Part shown: in pieces, positions 3,319-19,703 of the stretch
How positions within the stretch are numbered: position 1 is the first letter of the stretch
Layout: each line of letters starts with the position of its first letter
Source: Phycisphaerales bacterium
Lineage (GTDB): Bacteria; Planctomycetota; Phycisphaerae; Phycisphaerales; UBA1924
Assembly: GCA_029260535.1 (NCBI GenBank)
Contig: JAJDDA010000253.1
Span: 1-32,079, forward strand
Length of the DNA stretch: 32,079 nt
Reading direction: 5' to 3'
Translations under genes and position numbers: made by a program
The notes under the pieces: generated by a model
Databases searched by the model: none
The model's input: only the letters and a program-made list of their open reading frames with translations
What the model was told of the DNA's origin: nothing

Positions 3319-4737
3319 TCAGTGCGCGACCTGCTGACCGAGCAGCGGCGCGATGGTATCGAGCATCTCGTCCAGCTTCGCCTGCGTCTTCGCTTCAAGG
3401 TTCAGCCGCAGCAGCGGTTCGGTGTTGCTCTTGCGGACGTTGCACCACCAGCCCTGATTCTCGAAGCAATCGACGGTGATCCCGTCGAGCTCGTCAATCT
3501 CGCCGAAGTCGATGTAGCGATCGACCAGCTCCTCCATCGCGGCGTCCTTGTCCTCGACCTCGAAGTTGATCTCGCCGGACTGGGGGTACCGCGCGATCGG
3601 CGCGATGCACCTGCTCATCGGTTTGCCCGCATCGGCGAGCGCCGTGAGCACGCACGCCATCGCGATCGCGCCGGAGTCCGCGTTGAAGTTGTCGCGGAAG
3701 TAGAAGTGCCCCGACAGCTCACCGCCGAAGACGGCGCCTTGCGCTTCGAGCTCGGCCTTCATGAAGACGTGCCCCACCCGGCCCTTGACCGGCTTGCCTC
3801 CCGCCTTGGTGATCTCTTCTTCGAGCGACTTGCTTGATCGCAGGTCGTAGACGATCGGTGAACCGGGGTTGCTCTTGAGGAACCACTGCGCCAGCCACGC
3901 GGTGAGGTGATCGCACCCGACGATGCCGCCCTTTTCATCCACCACCATGCAGCGGTCGGCGTCGCCGTCGAAGCAGATGCCGAGGTCGGCCTTCTCCTTG
4001 AGCACCTTCGCCTGCAGATCGGCGAGGTTTGCAGCGATCAGCGGGTTCGGCTCGTGCACGAACTCGTTCTTCGAATTGTCGAAGTAGAGCTCGACGATCT
4101 CGAGCCCCTCGATGTCGGCGCCTTTGGAGCCGAAGACCTTGGGGATCATCGTCCCGGCCATCGCGTTGGAGGCATCGACAACGATCTTCAGTTTCTTCCC
4201 GTTGAGCTTCAGGAACGAGCGCACGTGCTGGGTGTACGCGTCCCAGAGGTCACGCTTCTCGACGCGCCCCTTGTCGGCGACGTCCGCCTTGTGCTTGCGC
4301 GGGTCCGCCATCGCGGCGAACTTGCGGATCTCGTTGAGACCGGTCCCCGCGCCGACAGGTCTGGCGAGGCGTTTGGATATTTTGAACCCGTTGTACTGCG
4401 GCGGGTTGTGCGAGGCGGTCACCATCACACCGCCGGCGCAGTCGAGGTAGTTGATCGCGAAGTACACGAATGGTGTATCCACCATCCCCACATCGATGAC
4501 GTTGCCTCCCTGATCCGCGATGCCCTCTTGCAGTTCGGTCGACAAGGTCGGGCTCGATACCCGCATGTCGCGACCGACGACCAGCCGCTGCATCATCGGG
4601 GTCGTGTGCCCTGCGGTCTCCGCCTCGGCGAGGAGGAACCGGGACGAGCCGAAACCGATCTGCCACGCCATCCGGTCGGTCAGCGGATCGGGGTACACCC
4701 CGCGAACGTCGTACGCCTTGAACACATTCCCGAGCAT
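3319..4737 (-). CDS. Phosphomannomutase/phosphoglucomutase
   Basis: 472 residues, a full-length alpha-D-phosphohexomutase. All four signature loops are present: the phosphoserine loop TASHNPPQYNG with S109, the Mg-binding loop DGDADR at 257-262, the sugar-recognition loop GELSGH, and the phosphate-binding loop RKSNTEPLLR near the C-terminus. The architecture is closest to the AlgC/ManB type, which interconverts the 1- and 6-phosphates of mannose or glucose for GDP-mannose, LPS or exopolysaccharide precursors. The preference between mannose and glucose cannot be read from sequence. AAAGGA lies about 10 bases before the ATG and is a usable ribosome-binding site. The gene is followed closely by the LOG gene and separated by 105 bases from the helicase upstream. 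Confidence 0.92.
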   Translation of the reverse strand: MLGNVFKAYDVRGVYPDPLTDRMAWQIGFGSSRFLLAEAETAGHTTPMMQRLVVGRDMRVSSPTLSTELQEGIADQGGNVIDVGMVDTPFVYFAINYLDCAGGVMVTASHNPPQYNGFKISKRLARPVGAGTGLNEIRKFAAMADPRKHKADVADKGRVEKRDLWDAYTQHVRSFLKLNGKKLKIVVDASNAMAGTMIPKVFGSKGADIEGLEIVELYFDNSKNEFVHEPNPLIAANLADLQAKVLKEKADLGICFDGDADRCMVVDEKGGIVGCDHLTAWLAQWFLKSNPGSPIVYDLRSSKSLEEEITKAGGKPVKGRVGHVFMKAELEAQGAVFGGELSGHFYFRDNFNADSGAIAMACVLTALADAGKPMSRCIAPIARYPQSGEINFEVEDKDAAMEELVDRYIDFGEIDELDGITVDCFENQGWWCNVRKSNTEPLLRLNLEAKTQAKLDEMLDTIAPLLGQQVAH

Positions 4738-12467: not shown

Positions 12468-13283
12468 TCAGCCCTCGCGTTTATCGCGGGTGATCGTGGC
12501 GTAGGCGTTGTGGTTGTGGATCGATTCGAAGTTCTCGCTGTCGATCTCGTACCAGTGGATCCGCTCTTCGGCATCCAGGCCGATCGCGAGATCGCGGACG
12601 ATGTCCTCGACGAACTTCGGGTTCTCGAAGGCGTCCTCGGTCACGAACTTCTCGTCGGGGCGCTTCAGCACCGAGTAGACCTCGGTCGAGGCGGCGTTTT
12701 CCAGAATCCGCACCAGGTCCTCGATCCAGAGCGTCCCGTCGAAGCGGACCCGCGCGGTGATCTCGCAGCGCTGGTTGTGGGCGCCGAACCGGCTGATCTC
12801 TTTCGAGCAGGGGCACAGGCTCGTCGCCGGCGCGGTCACCTGCATGATGAAGTCATCATGAGAGTTGCTCGAGCACTCGAACGTGACGCGGTAATCCATC
12901 AACCCCGGGGCCTTGGTCACGGGGGCCCGCTTGTTGATGAAGTAGGTGAATTCAAGCTTGAAGTGCGCCGTCTCGGCGTTCAGGCGGTCACGTATTTTTC
13001 TGGTGATCTCGGGGATCATCGCCGGTGTGACACCCTCGGCGTTCTCGTTGAGCACCTCCAGGAAGCGGCTCATGTGCGTGCCCTTCTGGTTGTGCGGCAG
13101 CGCGACGTACATGTCGATATTCGCGATCGTGTGCTGCTCACCACCCTCGGGGGTCTTCAGCACGATGGGGTAGGTGACGTTCTTCACGCCGACCTTGTCG
13201 ATCGCGATGTTCCGGCGATCGCTCAGGCCCTGAACATCAGGCATCGCGACCGGCTTCGATTTGCATTCGTTCGCTTCAGGCAT
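12468..13283 (-). CDS. folE2: GTP cyclohydrolase FolE2 (type IB)
   Basis: 271 residues from the ATG at 13283, which has GGAG seven bases upstream; a start at 13340 would add 19 charged residues and lacks that site. Conserved features are GTHMSRF (about 69-74), the catalytic-cysteine region SLCPCSKEIS (C157, C159), GAHNQR, and the C-terminal ESIHNHNA. FolE2 converts GTP to 7,8-dihydroneopterin triphosphate, the first step of tetrahydrofolate synthesis and, in many bacteria, of queuosine. Unlike the Zn-dependent FolE it accepts other metals, and in several bacteria it is induced by zinc limitation. No other folate genes are near. The 5' leader (13284-13435) holds overlapping inverted repeats, described separately. 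Its stop is about 170 bases upstream of the PBP2 start. Confidence 0.93.
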   Translation of the reverse strand: MPEANECKSKPVAMPDVQGLSDRRNIAIDKVGVKNVTYPIVLKTPEGGEQHTIANIDMYVALPHNQKGTHMSRFLEVLNENAEGVTPAMIPEITRKIRDRLNAETAHFKLEFTYFINKRAPVTKAPGLMDYRVTFECSSNSHDDFIMQVTAPATSLCPCSKEISRFGAHNQRCEITARVRFDGTLWIEDLVRILENAASTEVYSVLKRPDEKFVTEDAFENPKFVEDIVRDLAIGLDAEERIHWYEIDSENFESIHNHNAYATITRDKREG

Positions 13284-13435
13284 CCGGCTCTCCGAGTCGT
13301 CTGTTAGGCGTCTACGGACGCGATCTGGTGATGGTGTCATCGTATGCGCTGCATACTTGGATGACGATCATCCACCGGACGTCACACGCGATGAAACATT
13401 GCTGCACGAAGGCCAATGGACCCACTTGTGGGTTA
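13284..13435 (-). promoter_or_regulatory. folE2 leader with two mutually exclusive stem-loops
   Basis: On the transcribed (minus) strand, 13373-13359 reads GGATGA-tcg-TCATCC, a perfect 6-bp hairpin. The segment GTCATC at 13365-13360 can instead pair with GATGAC at 13341-13336, stacked on an inner perfect stem GTATGC-agc-GCATAC (13356-13342), giving a 12-bp stem with a 3-base bulge. The two structures share a strand and cannot form together. The larger one ends 52 bases before the folE2 ATG, and neither has a U-tract. They may be an RNA switch or nested operator sites. A further short palindrome (CCCAC/GTGGG) lies just after the upstream gene's stop. Confidence 0.4.
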
Positions 13436-14272
13436 TTACGCGGTTGCGGTGGACTGCGGCTGGCGCTCAAGCATGGACTCCGCCCATGAGGACCCGATCG
13501 GAACACCGATCAGGGCGCCGGACGCCCACATCATCGGGGTCAGCCGACCCAGATTGAGCATCGATCCGAGATACGCCGACTCGACCAGATCATCTCCAGC
13601 CATCAATCCGGTCAGCAAAGGCGCCGCGATCGCGGCGAGGACCAACCCGAGCATCGCGGTGACAGGCCCCGGACCGGGGCCGATGAACCGGGCGACGGTT
13701 CCTGCCAGGAGCGCCCCGACGATCGCCGCTGCGAATATCTGCATCCGTTGGTCACCGATCGCGACGAGCAGGACAACGAACATCGCGAGGGTCCCCGCTG
13801 CCATCGCGCCAGCGATCACGCCCCCTGCACCGGGAACGACGCCCCGGACCGCGTCCGGCAGCTTGTCGATCCCCGGATCGAGGCGATGGAGGATCCAGAT
13901 GATCCCGAGGACCATCGCGAGCAGCACACCGCCCTCGATCGCAAGCTTCGTCATGATCGGTGTTTCACCGGCGATCCTGACGAGTTGGGAGACCCCCGAG
14001 TGCTCGATCGCCGGCCACGCGAGCGTGACCCCTGCGACGAAGCTACCCAACCTCCAGCCGAGGATCTTTGATACGCCGGCGCCGAAGAGCAGCGCCAGAG
14101 CGAAAACGAGCAAGGTCCTGATGATCGCGGGGGCGACCGATGTCCCGACGAGCATCGTCGAGACCGGTCCACCATCGAGCCCACGGATCGGCCGGCACAG
14201 CCACGCGGCGAGAGGGCCGAGCAGCGCGACGGCGAGGGCGATCATTGTCCAGCGGAGTGTGACTCGAACCAT
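13436..14272 (-). CDS. Polytopic membrane protein of unknown function
   Basis: 278 residues from the ATG at 14272. The frame is open to 14710, but the upstream part lies antisense to hutH and its predicted residues are low-complexity R, D and G, so it is rejected. Seven or eight hydrophobic segments can be seen, the first being WTMIALAVALLGPLAAWL, then LLVFALALLFGAGV, GGVLLAMVLGIIWIL, GAMAAGTLAMFVVLLVAI, IFAAAIVGALLAGTVA and VTAMLGLVLAAIAAPLL. There are few charged residues within the membrane part, and no transporter or enzyme motif is apparent. I do not recognise the family. The gene is divergent from hutH with 84 bases between the ATGs; both starts are preceded by the same 12-base sequence, which hints at shared control. 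Confidence 0.7.
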   Translation of the reverse strand: MVRVTLRWTMIALAVALLGPLAAWLCRPIRGLDGGPVSTMLVGTSVAPAIIRTLLVFALALLFGAGVSKILGWRLGSFVAGVTLAWPAIEHSGVSQLVRIAGETPIMTKLAIEGGVLLAMVLGIIWILHRLDPGIDKLPDAVRGVVPGAGGVIAGAMAAGTLAMFVVLLVAIGDQRMQIFAAAIVGALLAGTVARFIGPGPGPVTAMLGLVLAAIAAPLLTGLMAGDDLVESAYLGSMLNLGRLTPMMWASGALIGVPIGSSWAESMLERQPQSTATA

Positions 14273-14307
14273 CCGAGCAGTGTCCCCGGTTGGTGTCCAT
14301 CTGGCAA
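14273..14307 (-). promoter_or_regulatory. Candidate leaderless promoter of the membrane-protein gene
   Basis: On the minus strand TTGCCA (14307-14302) and GACACT (14284-14279) are separated by exactly 17 bases, and GACACT ends six bases before the ATG. TTGCCA matches five of six consensus -35 bases. GACACT matches three of six -10 bases but keeps the key A and the final T. Transcription would start at about the A of the ATG, and there is no ribosome-binding site. The -10 region is part of the inverted repeat shared with hutH. Confidence 0.4.
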
Positions 14308-14353
14308 ACCCGAATTGCCCTTGTGGGAACGCCCCGGGATCGGGACACTGCTC
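14275..14353. repeat. Perfect 12-bp inverted repeat in the hutH divergent region
   Basis: The left arm GAGCAGTGTCCC (14275-14286) is the exact reverse complement of GGGACACTGCTC (14342-14353), with a 55-base spacer. Each arm lies directly before a start codon: two bases before the membrane-protein ATG and three before the hutH ATG. The sub-motif GTGTCC occurs a third time inside the spacer (14294-14299). The arms could be a pair of promoter cores, an operator pair allowing looping, or both. Confidence 0.7.
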
Positions 14354-14356
14354 ACC
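14321..14356 (+). promoter_or_regulatory. Candidate leaderless promoter of hutH
   Basis: TTGTGG (14321-14326), a 17-base spacer and GACACT (14344-14349) are followed by only seven bases before the hutH ATG at 14357. No Shine-Dalgarno sequence is present. The hexamer GACACT and its flanks (GGGACACTGCTC, 14342-14353) are identical to the sequence before the divergent gene, in mirror orientation. The -35 match is weak (TTG only). Confidence 0.38.
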
Positions 14357-15916
14357 ATGCCCACCGCCCCATCCTCCAACACGATCGCCCTGACCGGGGA
14401 ACCGCTGACCATCACGCAGATCGAGCGGATCGCTCTGTCTCAAGCCACCATCGAGATCCCATCGGACACGATCGCCCGGATCGAGGCTTCGAGGAGCGTC
14501 GTCGAGCAGGCGATGACCGATGGCCGGACGATTTACGGCGTCAACACCGGGTTCGGCTCGCTCGCCAACACCCGCGTCCCGGCGGAGGATCTCCGCTCGC
14601 TCCAATTGAACCTGATCCGCTCGCACGCGGCGTGTATCGGTAAGCCCCTGCCAACCGAGACGGTGCGGGCGATGATGGCCCTGCTGACCGCATCGCTGAG
14701 TAGAGGGCATTCAGGGGTGCGACCGGTGCTCGTCCGGACGCTCGTCGAGATGCTCAACAAGGGGGTCACCCCGATCGTCCCGGAGACCGGCTCGGTCGGG
14801 GCATCTGGTGATTTGGCGCCGTTGGCGCACACGGTGCTCGTCGCGCTCGGTGAAGGAGATGCGGAATACCAGGACAACCGCATCGCCGGTGCGGACGCGA
14901 TGCGGCAAGCCGGGATCACGCCGATCCATCTCGAAGCCAAAGAGGGGCTGGCGCTGATCAACGGGACGCACCTGATGGCGGCTCGTGCGAGCCTGGCGCT
15001 GTGCGCGATCGATCGGCTCGTCGCGGCGGCGGTGGTTTCGACCGGGCTCGCGATCGATTCAGCAAAGGCGACCGACTCCTTCCTCGACCCGCGCGTCCAC
15101 GCGATCCGCAACCAACCGAATCAGGCGAAGGCGGCAGCGCTCATCTCGGCTCAACTCAAGGGCAGCGCAATATTGCCAAGCCACAGTGTTGATGACCCTC
15201 GCGTGCAGGATCCGTATTCGTACCGGTGCTCGCCGGTGGTGCTCGGCGCCGCGTTGGATCTGATTGATGCCGCGAGATCAGTTGTTGAGAATGAACTCGG
15301 CGCGGTGACGGACAATCCGCTGGTCTTTGGTCGCGCCGGCGATGATGGTCCCGACATGGTCAGCGCGGGAAACTTCCACGGGATGCCGCTGGCCGTACAA
15401 CTCGATTCGCTCTCGGTCGCGATGTGCCACATCGCGGGGATCGCCGAACGGCGGATCTTCCAATTGCTCGCCGCGAGAGACCCTCAAAACCCGCTCACCC
15501 CCCACCTGAGCCCCAACCCCGGGACCCAATCGGGGCTGATGATCACGCAGTACACCGCGGCGGCGTGCGTGAACGAATTGCAGACCCTCGCGACCCCTGC
15601 GAGCGTGGCCAACGTGCCGACCTGCGCCGGGATGGAGGATTACAACTCCTTCGGACCGACCAGCGCCAAGCAGCTCCGGAGGGCGGTGGATCTGACCCGG
15701 TCGGTGATCGCGATCGAGATGCTCTGCTGCTGCGCGGCTCTCGATCAGCAGGAACTGAAAACCGGCGGAAACCTCGAAGAGGCGAGGAGCATCGTACGGG
15801 GAGTCGTCCCGGTGCTGACCGAGGACCGTTCCCCTTCACCGGACATCGAGGCCATCAAATTACTGATCAGCCAGGGGCGATTCGCAGCGCTCGTCGATGG
15901 GATGAGCGAAGGCTGA
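14357..15916 (+). CDS. hutH: Histidine ammonia-lyase
   Basis: 519 residues from the ATG at 14357; an in-frame ATG at 14315 would add 14 residues that overlap the putative promoter, so it is not used. The MIO prosthetic-group tripeptide A149-S150-G151 sits in GSVGASGDLAPLAH, the family signature. YGVNTGFGSLA (about 60-70) is the conserved N-terminal active-site segment, and QDPYSYRCSP lies in the second half. The enzyme deaminates L-histidine to trans-urocanate and ammonia, the first step of the Hut pathway, and is a cytoplasmic homotetramer. It leads a set of hut genes on the same strand (hutU, hutG, hutI), though two non-hut genes are inserted. No HutC or other regulator gene is visible. Confidence 0.95.
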   Translation: MPTAPSSNTIALTGEPLTITQIERIALSQATIEIPSDTIARIEASRSVVEQAMTDGRTIYGVNTGFGSLANTRVPAEDLRSLQLNLIRSHAACIGKPLPTETVRAMMALLTASLSRGHSGVRPVLVRTLVEMLNKGVTPIVPETGSVGASGDLAPLAHTVLVALGEGDAEYQDNRIAGADAMRQAGITPIHLEAKEGLALINGTHLMAARASLALCAIDRLVAAAVVSTGLAIDSAKATDSFLDPRVHAIRNQPNQAKAAALISAQLKGSAILPSHSVDDPRVQDPYSYRCSPVVLGAALDLIDAARSVVENELGAVTDNPLVFGRAGDDGPDMVSAGNFHGMPLAVQLDSLSVAMCHIAGIAERRIFQLLAARDPQNPLTPHLSPNPGTQSGLMITQYTAAACVNELQTLATPASVANVPTCAGMEDYNSFGPTSAKQLRRAVDLTRSVIAIEMLCCCAALDQQELKTGGNLEEARSIVRGVVPVLTEDRSPSPDIEAIKLLISQGRFAALVDGMSEG

Positions 15917-15998
15917 AATAGTCTTCCCGGCAGCGATGTTCGTATTCAGACCAATCAGCAAGACACACCACGATCCCTCACTCACGGAGCATTTTCCC

Positions 15999-16646
15999 AT
16001 GCGTCTCAAATTCATCGATTCCATCGCGCCGCTTGCATCGCTGGCGCTCGTCTCGCTGGCCGTCGCCGGCGCTTCGGTCAATTCCGACTTGCTTGATCCG
16101 GCTACCGAATCACCGGGGCTTGCGGTGGGTGACGCGGCTCCCGATGTTGCTCTCGTGACCCCCGAAGGCGAAGAGATCGACCTGTCGGGGCTTTACGCCG
16201 ATGGCCCGCTGGTCGTGACGTTCTACCGCGGCGGCTGGTGCCCCTACTGCAACATGGCCCTCAAGGAATGGGCAGGGCGCTTCGACGACCTGACCGCGGC
16301 CGGCGGGCAGTTCATCGCGATCACCCCAGAGAAACCCGAGGATGCGCAGGCGACGATCGAGAAGGCGAACGCCGGGTACCGGGTCTTCATCGATCCCGAA
16401 GGCGACGTGGGCAAGGCGTTCCGGGTGCAGTTCGAGGTCGACGCCGAAACCAGGAAGGCGTACAAAAATTACGGTATCGATCTGGAGAAAGCCAACGCCA
16501 ACGGCCTCTGGGAGCTCCCGGCGCCTGCGACCTTCGTGATCGATACCAAGGGCGTGATCCGGTGGGTCCACGCGGAGTGGGATTACCGCGCCGACCATCG
16601 CGCTGAGCCCGACGAGGTCATCGCGGCGGTCCGCGACCTCGACTGA
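15999..16646 (+). CDS. Secreted peroxiredoxin-like (AhpC/TSA, thioredoxin-fold) protein
   Basis: 215 residues from the ATG at 15999, which has GGAG nine bases upstream; an in-frame ATG at 15936 would bury the signal peptide. Residues 1-26 form a signal peptide ([18 protein letters not shown]). The domain starts [17 protein letters not shown], and the active site is [14 protein letters not shown] with C81 and C84. The CxxC sits where the peroxidatic cysteine of AhpC-like proteins is expected, typical of the peroxiredoxin-like group with a WCPYC motif. [15 protein letters not shown] is the conserved strand with the cis-proline. It probably reduces peroxides or protein disulfides in the periplasm; the reductant is unknown. 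The gene lies between hutH and hutU and is followed by a terminator-like hairpin. Confidence 0.85.
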
Positions 16647-18412: not shown

Positions 18413-18551
18413 CGGTTAGCCGGGCGGTGCTGACGACGATGTTGGTTTTCGGAATCAACGGGCAGATATCGGCCTGCCATCAGTGGCAAGGCCCCGGAAC
18501 CACGGCACAGTTCTCCTGACGAGCCATTGCGCGCTCGCCGGGAGAGAACCA

Positions 18552-19703
18552 ATGCCGAAATCGAAAATTGCTATCTGTCTTTCTGCGATCGCGTGTTGCG
18601 GCGCCGGTGCTCTGAGCGCCATCGCCGACACCGCCGGCGAGGAACCTCAAGAGATCCGGATCGATTTCGAGGGATTCGCCGAACTGACACCGATCGGGGA
18701 TCAGTACGCGCACCTCGGTGTGACGTTCGAACTCGGCGGGACAACCATGCTTCCGGTCATCGCGACCGAGGGTGCGCCTTCGGTCGCGTTCGCAGGCTAC
18801 GACGGCTCGCTGGACACGCCGTTCGTTTCCGGGTTCTCCGGTCTGACCGACCCTCCCGGGCAGACGGTGATCGAGAGCAACGACATGGTGATCCGGTTCG
18901 CGAAGCCCGCGAAGATTGTCCGGATCTGGGTCCTGGATATCGACGGCGGCGCCCAGACCTACTGGACGGACAAGTGCCTCGTCGCGGGCGCGGACACCAA
19001 CGACATCATCATCGACTGGATGACCCTCGACGCGGATGATCCGGGGACCGGCGATCTGGCGCACACGCTCTTCGAGCTGATCGCGCCCGAGGGCAGCACC
19101 GGGTTTGCCAAGGTCGCTATCGATGTCTCAGCAGATATGGGGTACGCGATCGACGATCTGAGTTTCGTTCTGATGCCGGATGCGCCAGAGGAAGGCCCCG
19201 AGGAGGGACCGGAAGAAGGCCCTGAGGAAGGTCCTGAAGAAGGCCCCGGCGGACCGATCATCCCCGACGACAACCCGTTGTTCTACGAGATCGAGCAGGC
19301 GATACCGATCGATCCGTACGCGATCGATATTCGCGGAGGCATGGCCTACCTGACCGACGAGCCGGACGGCGGCGAGGTGTTCGCGATCGTTCCGGTCAGC
19401 CCGACCGGCGAAATCGAGGTTGACCCTTCGGTCCTCCCGTGCGGGCAGCCGATCTACTGGAGTTACGTCGGTATCGGCCCCCGTGGGAACACGATCCGGT
19501 TCGGCTCGCGTCTTGAGACGATCACGCGGAGCCCCTTCGCGGACATCACAGTGGACGGAACGGTGGACACCGCGGACCTGGGTGTGATGATCCAGGCCTT
19601 CGGTGCGAGCAACCCAACCGGGGATCTCAACGCGGACGGGATTGTGGACACCGCGGACCTGGGGCTGCTCATCGGCGCTTTCGGGACGACCTGCCACGAG
19701 TGA
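18552..19703 (+). CDS. Secreted protein with C-terminal dockerin-like repeat pair
   Basis: 383 residues from the ATG at 18552, with GGAG seven bases upstream; the open frame before it is not used. Residues 1-25 form a signal peptide (IAICLSAIACCGAGALSAIA). The first domain (about 30-208) is all-beta and opens IDFEGFAELTPIGDQY, a pattern seen in lectin-like or PEP-CTERM-type surface proteins. An acidic linker of five EEGP repeats follows (19188-19247), then a second small domain. The C-terminus has two EF-hand-like repeats, DGTVDTADLGVMIQAFG and DGIVDTADLGLLIGAFG, as in type I dockerins, with Ca-binding D/N positions. Such ends are common on planctomycete extracellular proteins. No catalytic motif is seen. 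It lies between hutU and hutG with no evident link to histidine use. Confidence 0.8.
   Translation: MPKSKIAICLSAIACCGAGALSAIADTAGEEPQEIRIDFEGFAELTPIGDQYAHLGVTFELGGTTMLPVIATEGAPSVAFAGYDGSLDTPFVSGFSGLTDPPGQTVIESNDMVIRFAKPAKIVRIWVLDIDGGAQTYWTDKCLVAGADTNDIIIDWMTLDADDPGTGDLAHTLFELIAPEGSTGFAKVAIDVSADMGYAIDDLSFVLMPDAPEEGPEEGPEEGPEEGPEEGPGGPIIPDDNPLFYEIEQAIPIDPYAIDIRGGMAYLTDEPDGGEVFAIVPVSPTGEIEVDPSVLPCGQPIYWSYVGIGPRGNTIRFGSRLETITRSPFADITVDGTVDTADLGVMIQAFGASNPTGDLNADGIVDTADLGLLIGAFGTTCHE
19563..19663 (+). repeat. 20-bp direct repeat encoding the two dockerin-like motifs
   Basis: The 20-base sequence at 19563-19582 recurs exactly at 19644-19663, an 81-base (27-codon) period. It encodes VDTADLG in both Ca-binding repeats, while the bases between have diverged. 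The identity at DNA level suggests a fairly recent duplication or gene conversion within the domain. Confidence 0.8.

Follow-up and report, generated by a model that had tools for sequence, protein, structure and literature searches.

Architecture of the divergent hutH locus

The window, i.e. the entire 32,079-nucleotide stretch of Phycisphaerales DNA analyzed here, encodes a histidine ammonia-lyase (HutH), whose nearest named relatives come from Phycisphaerales metagenome assemblies of the Planctomycetota, and a membrane protein transcribed divergently from it across an 84-bp intergenic region (Table 1). On the 3' side of hutH lie the hut-pathway urocanase (hutU), arginase-family and amidohydrolase genes. 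Side features of this hut cluster (window 15936-16646 and 18483-19703) include a redoxin-like gene that separates hutH from hutU. Between hutU and the arginase-family gene, a protein with EEGPEEGP repeats is encoded; it matches no family and has an end that is presumably dockerin-like. On the opposite side, the membrane-protein gene is followed in the window by folE2 and then by a PBP2-like gene.

Examination of the intergenic region reveals two exact copies of the 12-mer GGGACACTGCTC in inverted orientation, with no third copy in the window. They are separated from the start codons by 2 nt on the membrane-protein side and 3 nt on the hutH side, right to the base as the first-pass annotation had described, and the coordinates of the GACACT hexamers and of the TTG-beginning hexamers upstream of them likewise agree with that description. 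None of the Shine-Dalgarno-type tetramers AGGA, GGAG, GAGG and AAGG occurs in the 18 nt preceding either ATG. A scan of positions 14200-14420 with the E. coli-type consensus detected no promoter because both hexamers depart from this consensus.

Table 1. Genes and promoter-like elements at the divergent locus, in window coordinates
Feature	Position	Strand	Remarks
folE2	12468..13340	-	GCHY-1 PF02649; conserved downstream neighbor of the membrane-protein gene
Membrane protein, 278 aa, no Pfam family	13436..14272	-	start matches homologs aligning from residue 1
Membrane-protein ATG	14272-14270	-	
12-mer GGGACACTGCTC, membrane-protein arm	14275..14286	-	exact copy
Membrane-protein -10-like hexamer GACACT	14279..14284	-	6 nt before ATG
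Membrane-protein -35-like hexamer TTGCCA	14302..14307	-	spacer 17
hutH -35-like hexamer TTGTGG	14321..14326	+	spacer 17
12-mer GGGACACTGCTC, hutH arm	14342..14353	+	exact copy
hutH -10-like hexamer GACACT	14344..14349	+	7 nt before ATG
hutH ATG	14357-14359	+	
hutH, histidine ammonia-lyase	14357..15916	+	Lyase_aromatic PF00221, E 9e-165

Start-adjacent -10 elements in Phycisphaerales genomes

Samples of genes from the same genome, with starts called by a simple purpose-made codon-usage gene caller, show a marked excess of the -10-like pattern TANNNT at -16 to -11 relative to the start codon: 26/153 genes in the first sample (4.8 on average at four control places) and 14/117 in the second (control 2.2). 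The two GACACT hexamers, at -13 for hutH and -12 for the membrane protein, fall within this peak. Shine-Dalgarno-like sites precede 47/153 and 30/117 genes respectively (controls 18 and 13), and these are mostly genes other than those with TANNNT. Among 40 leaderless-type genes from this genome a G stands two bases before the hexamer in 26, as it does in both GACACT arms, and the -35 place is not often occupied by TTG in the same set. A promoter scan was positive at the real-frame starts of 132/573 genes and at 14 and 7 of 573 wrong-frame decoy starts. The TANNNT peak is seen in all six other samples of the order, which include four more families (G035 9/43, G023 4/49, G046 9/51, G051 6/47, G056 10/49 and G057 9/66); elsewhere in the class or phylum it appears in one of six samples (G125, 6/48), with no clear peak in G116, G083, G107, G115 and G084. 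G125 (L185-L189) belongs to another family of the phylum, and four others from outside the class lack the peak. Together these counts suggest that promoters abutting the start codon are common in this order.

The two elements at the hutH locus belong to the leaderless promoters by position, each being a -10-like hexamer 6 or 7 nt from the ATG at the place of the genome-wide peak; having G rather than T as their first base, they are kept out of the strict TANNNT subtype. GACACT is close to the frequent TACACT. However, neither VACACT nor VA[CG]ACT is present at -16 to -11 among the 573 sampled genes, and hence the GACACT type of -10 is rare genome-wide. An imperfect -10 combined with TTG was likewise found in only 12/573, and shared ancestry therefore explains part of the frequency of such sites at hutH and the membrane-protein gene described below. 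Across 41 genomes of the family, GACACTN{5,8}ATG occurs 1130 times against 426 for the reversed pattern, which is a rough control because codon context differs.

Two further genes of this genome, which we take to be carA and dnaX, have TACACTGC, whose end is 5 nt away from the ATG and which shares seven of the eight bases of GACACTGC. TANNNT is found 5-10 nt before the start in 26/30 carA and 21/30 dnaX orthologs, and none of these loci (30 for each gene) combines it with TTG at 16-18 bp. The persistence of TANNNT at both genes across the order (L205-L264) suggests that these core genes have been expressed without a leader for a long time.

Putative promoters of hutH and membrane-protein orthologs

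For hutH, 74 loci were reduced to 62 by dropping duplicates and fragments, and to 56 by removing six from outside the order (L112-L117); for the membrane protein 37 loci were examined, 36 of them in a scan of five gene sets. A layout of TTG, 17 bp, hexamer, 5-10 nt and start codon recurs in other genera at both genes. At hutH, NACACT lies 5-10 nt before a start in 17/56 loci; where its first base is not T (11 loci), TTG is found at 16-18 bp in 10, and where it is T (6 loci), in none (Fisher p 6e-4, kinship not corrected for). In the wider class of hutH hexamers with a first base other than T, 13/17 have TTG, the exceptions being L023, L099, L108 and L110. A kinship-aware version of this test yielded on average 3.3 of 5 independent pairs in agreement and 0 opposed, too few for significance. 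The membrane-protein orthologs use a different hexamer family, NAT[CG]AN (37 loci): TTG accompanies all 14 hexamers that lack one T (at 17 bp in 12 loci, at 18 bp in 2) and is missing from the only locus with a complete TATCAT. The NACACT loci of hutH and these membrane-protein hexamers were picked without regard to TTG, for which the chance of occurrence at one of three places is 3.5%. Combined, a -10 lacking one T is accompanied by TTG at 17-18 bp in 24/25 cases, the alternative being TANNNT without TTG.

The spacer of the TTG-backed imperfect -10 sites (class I) is similarly constrained, being 17 bp at 13/14 hutH loci and 18 bp at the remaining one. Across the five gene sets it is exactly 17 bp in 30/33 class I sites, against 11 expected from an even spread over 16-18, the control used there since this set was picked by TTG. 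The scan shows no promoter of either kind at 28/56 hutH and 10/36 membrane-protein loci. Orthologs of hutH, the membrane-protein gene and a deaminase gene switch between the two kinds, while those of carA and dnaX stay with TANNNT. We tentatively suggest, as a possibility falling somewhat short of an even chance, that leaderless promoters in Phycisphaerales come in two interchangeable builds, namely a full TANNNT without a -35 element, or a -10 minus one T together with TTG(CC) at 17 bp. Given that orthologs mix both builds, a separate sigma factor for the TTG-bearing class is not needed, though conceivable, and the switching raises the possibility that promoter strength is held within bounds by selection. 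Active avoidance of TTG alongside TANNNT was also considered; the combination occurs in 0/80 sites of the five gene sets (about 2.8 expected), yet in 12/132 of the genome samples, where the latitude allowed for the start was wide, and avoidance is therefore not claimed.

Two probable back-to-back core promoters

The positional enrichment in the genome and the recurrence at orthologs of both genes bear out the twin leaderless promoter geometry proposed in the first-pass annotation. We therefore favor, with a probability of roughly 85%, the view that the 84-bp region comprises two back-to-back core promoters of the sigma-70 family whose transcripts would start at or next to the ATGs. Each would consist of TTG, 17 bp, GACACT, 6 or 7 nt and ATG; each -35/-10 set would be recognized by a sigma-70-family polymerase, with initiation some 7 nt downstream of the -10, at the A of the ATG or next to it. 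The resulting mRNAs would be leaderless, devoid of a Shine-Dalgarno sequence, and read by ribosomes binding the 5'-terminal AUG. The start-site and ribosome-entry steps follow the established anatomy of sigma-70 promoters, and it is from the sequence that we infer the transcription starts, the sigma factor, leaderless translation and promoter competition. As to the last, with 13 bp between the -35 elements the footprints of the polymerases are likely to overlap, the promoters may compete, and both polymerases could probably not be seated at the same time.

A variant of this view, which we consider quite improbable, retains the promoters and places the true translation starts further downstream, giving the mRNAs short leaders. 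In some orthologs the hexamer is indeed missing or stands 9-10 nt from the ATG, and the simple gene caller chose 14245 over 14272 as the start of the membrane protein; however, the membrane-protein homologs align from residue 1, several hutH orthologs start at the same aligned residue, and the distance from hexamer to ATG is mostly 5-8 nt.

The 12-bp inverted repeat

The first-pass annotation had read the 12-mer as a shared regulatory site, which would make it an operator: a single regulator would occupy both arms and control hutH together with the membrane protein. The exact identity at both starts speaks for this. The 35,778 pairs of 30-nt upstream regions (268 genes of the own-genome sample) include 3 that share at least 12 bases in any register and none that does so within ±2 bases of the same register; scaling the 34 divergent pairs found in 517.6 kb to a genome-wide total of about 200 gives an expectation of about 0.02 pairs with such a match per genome. 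The earlier statement that a chance match is unlikely is upheld by this figure and tempered by the selection of the feature from among many observations: the match is unusual, but for a feature singled out once the whole window had been read it is not extreme.

The comparative evidence points away from an operator. Twelve relatives with the divergent pair were examined at the DNA level (G037 and G050, with the pair present and no locus, being left out), and none has GGGACACTGCTC or an inverted repeat of at least 10 bp, the longest inverted repeats being 6-9 bp. What is conserved is the -10 core at the promoter position: in four of the 12 (L082, L084, L085 and L086) both genes are preceded by a TTG-backed leaderless arrangement, with hexamers that differ. 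The earlier reading had been staked on conservation of the arms in relatives, and such conservation is seen for the core promoter positions and not for the flanks of the 12-mer. As the interior of the hexamer in membrane-protein orthologs is mostly TCA or TGA rather than CAC, the two arms probably became identical within this lineage. A search of the 3.09-Mb assembly (257 contigs) for the 12-mer near other start codons, as the earlier annotation had advised, recovered a single further exact copy (C94:4479), which lies 114 nt into a coding frame beginning at 4365 and not before a functionally related gene. One relative offers some support for an operator, since L083 has on its membrane-protein side GTACACTGCTCG, a near-match to the 12-mer, though well upstream (about 40-50 nt) of a Shine-Dalgarno-led start (L083 1885-2000). 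A Shine-Dalgarno-like leader is seen at the membrane-protein gene in both L081 and L083, and GTACACTGCTCG looks like a leadered version of the membrane-protein promoter. Also against an operator stands the linkage of the membrane-protein gene to folE2 and not to hut (see below). On the relatives, the genomic copies and the inverted repeats we reject a shared operator of the divergent pair, and regard such a site as very improbable.

Under the preferred reading of two core promoters, the 12-bp identity would be that of an extended -10 region, with a G two bases before the hexamer, the ACACT core and GC after it; two near-consensus -10 regions would happen to coincide in their bordering bases too, without forming a conserved operator. 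The -10 core alone does not fully explain the 12-bp coincidence. That both arms are a functionless coincidence is scarcely credible: 12-mers with at most 2 mismatches are about as numerous in the window as after shuffling (4 versus a mean of 3.45), but the TTG-17-hexamer arrangement recurs position-specifically at orthologs of both genes.

The membrane protein

The membrane-protein gene has a folE2 homolog downstream in the same direction in 25/30 loci, whether or not hutH is nearby, and a PBP2-like gene often follows (window 12468-14272 (-); L031-L060). Of the 39 genomes holding both genes, only 10 have it divergent to hutH, three of these in a sister family, which indicates that the pair is probably old and has often been broken. 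An alignment-query search found matches in 5/119 genomes of the phylum, all in the same order. The protein of the window matches no Pfam or NCBIfam family, and its 11 homologs give weak, scattered hits. A structure model of fair confidence (mean pLDDT 81.5) shows an all-helical bundle, for which Foldseek found no match in the PDB at E <= 0.001. Membrane pyrophosphatases took the top rank in VIA-align 2 (Z 7.4, rmsd 5.1, 227 aligned), a likeness we do not use because the score is under the trust level for helical proteins. Since the stable neighbor is folE2 rather than hut, the earlier proposals that the membrane protein is co-regulated with histidine use, and that it is a transporter or sensor for histidine, find no support, and the promoter layout alone would not tie it to histidine use. 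From the neighboring genes we would guess at a role in folate, pterin or cell-wall work.

Implications and relation to known leaderless systems

Start-adjacent promoters as a regular mode of expression in an almost uncultured order would affect both start-codon annotation and promoter prediction. The ortholog sets are ready data on -35/-10 compensation, and the two-build rule, if true, would provide a natural record of compensatory evolution between these elements. The locus also carries a caution, in that a regulator site is not the only possible source of a perfect repeat shared by divergent starts; a pair of core promoters can produce one.

We found no published study of this promoter layout in Phycisphaerales in the open-licence literature. 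In the accessible portion of a 2024 survey, Phycisphaerae appear solely in a table of anti-Shine-Dalgarno types. Leaderless genes in which TANNNT precedes the start by about 12 bp are described from other phyla (Zheng et al. 2011, PMC3160421; the Deinococcus -10-motif, PMC12340547), and the term 'planctomyc' is absent from the available text of both sources. As far as those texts go, the present sites resemble these systems in how far the -10-like hexamer stands from the start codon, in lacking a Shine-Dalgarno sequence, and in that the middle bases of the hexamer carry little information, as in high-GC groups; they differ in their lineage, in having G in place of the first T of the hexamer, and in the TTG -35 element at 17 bp. 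Closer in phylogeny, the available part of Nakagawa et al. 2017 (PMC5397173) describes an upstream nucleotide bias at non-Shine-Dalgarno genes of one planctomycete species. That bias, which may reflect leaderless mRNA and/or S1 binding in Planctomycetes, agrees with the picture drawn here; whereas it concerns a single species and comes, in that text, with no motif or gene-level anatomy, the present analysis supplies a motif, its positions and its recurrence at Phycisphaerales orthologs.
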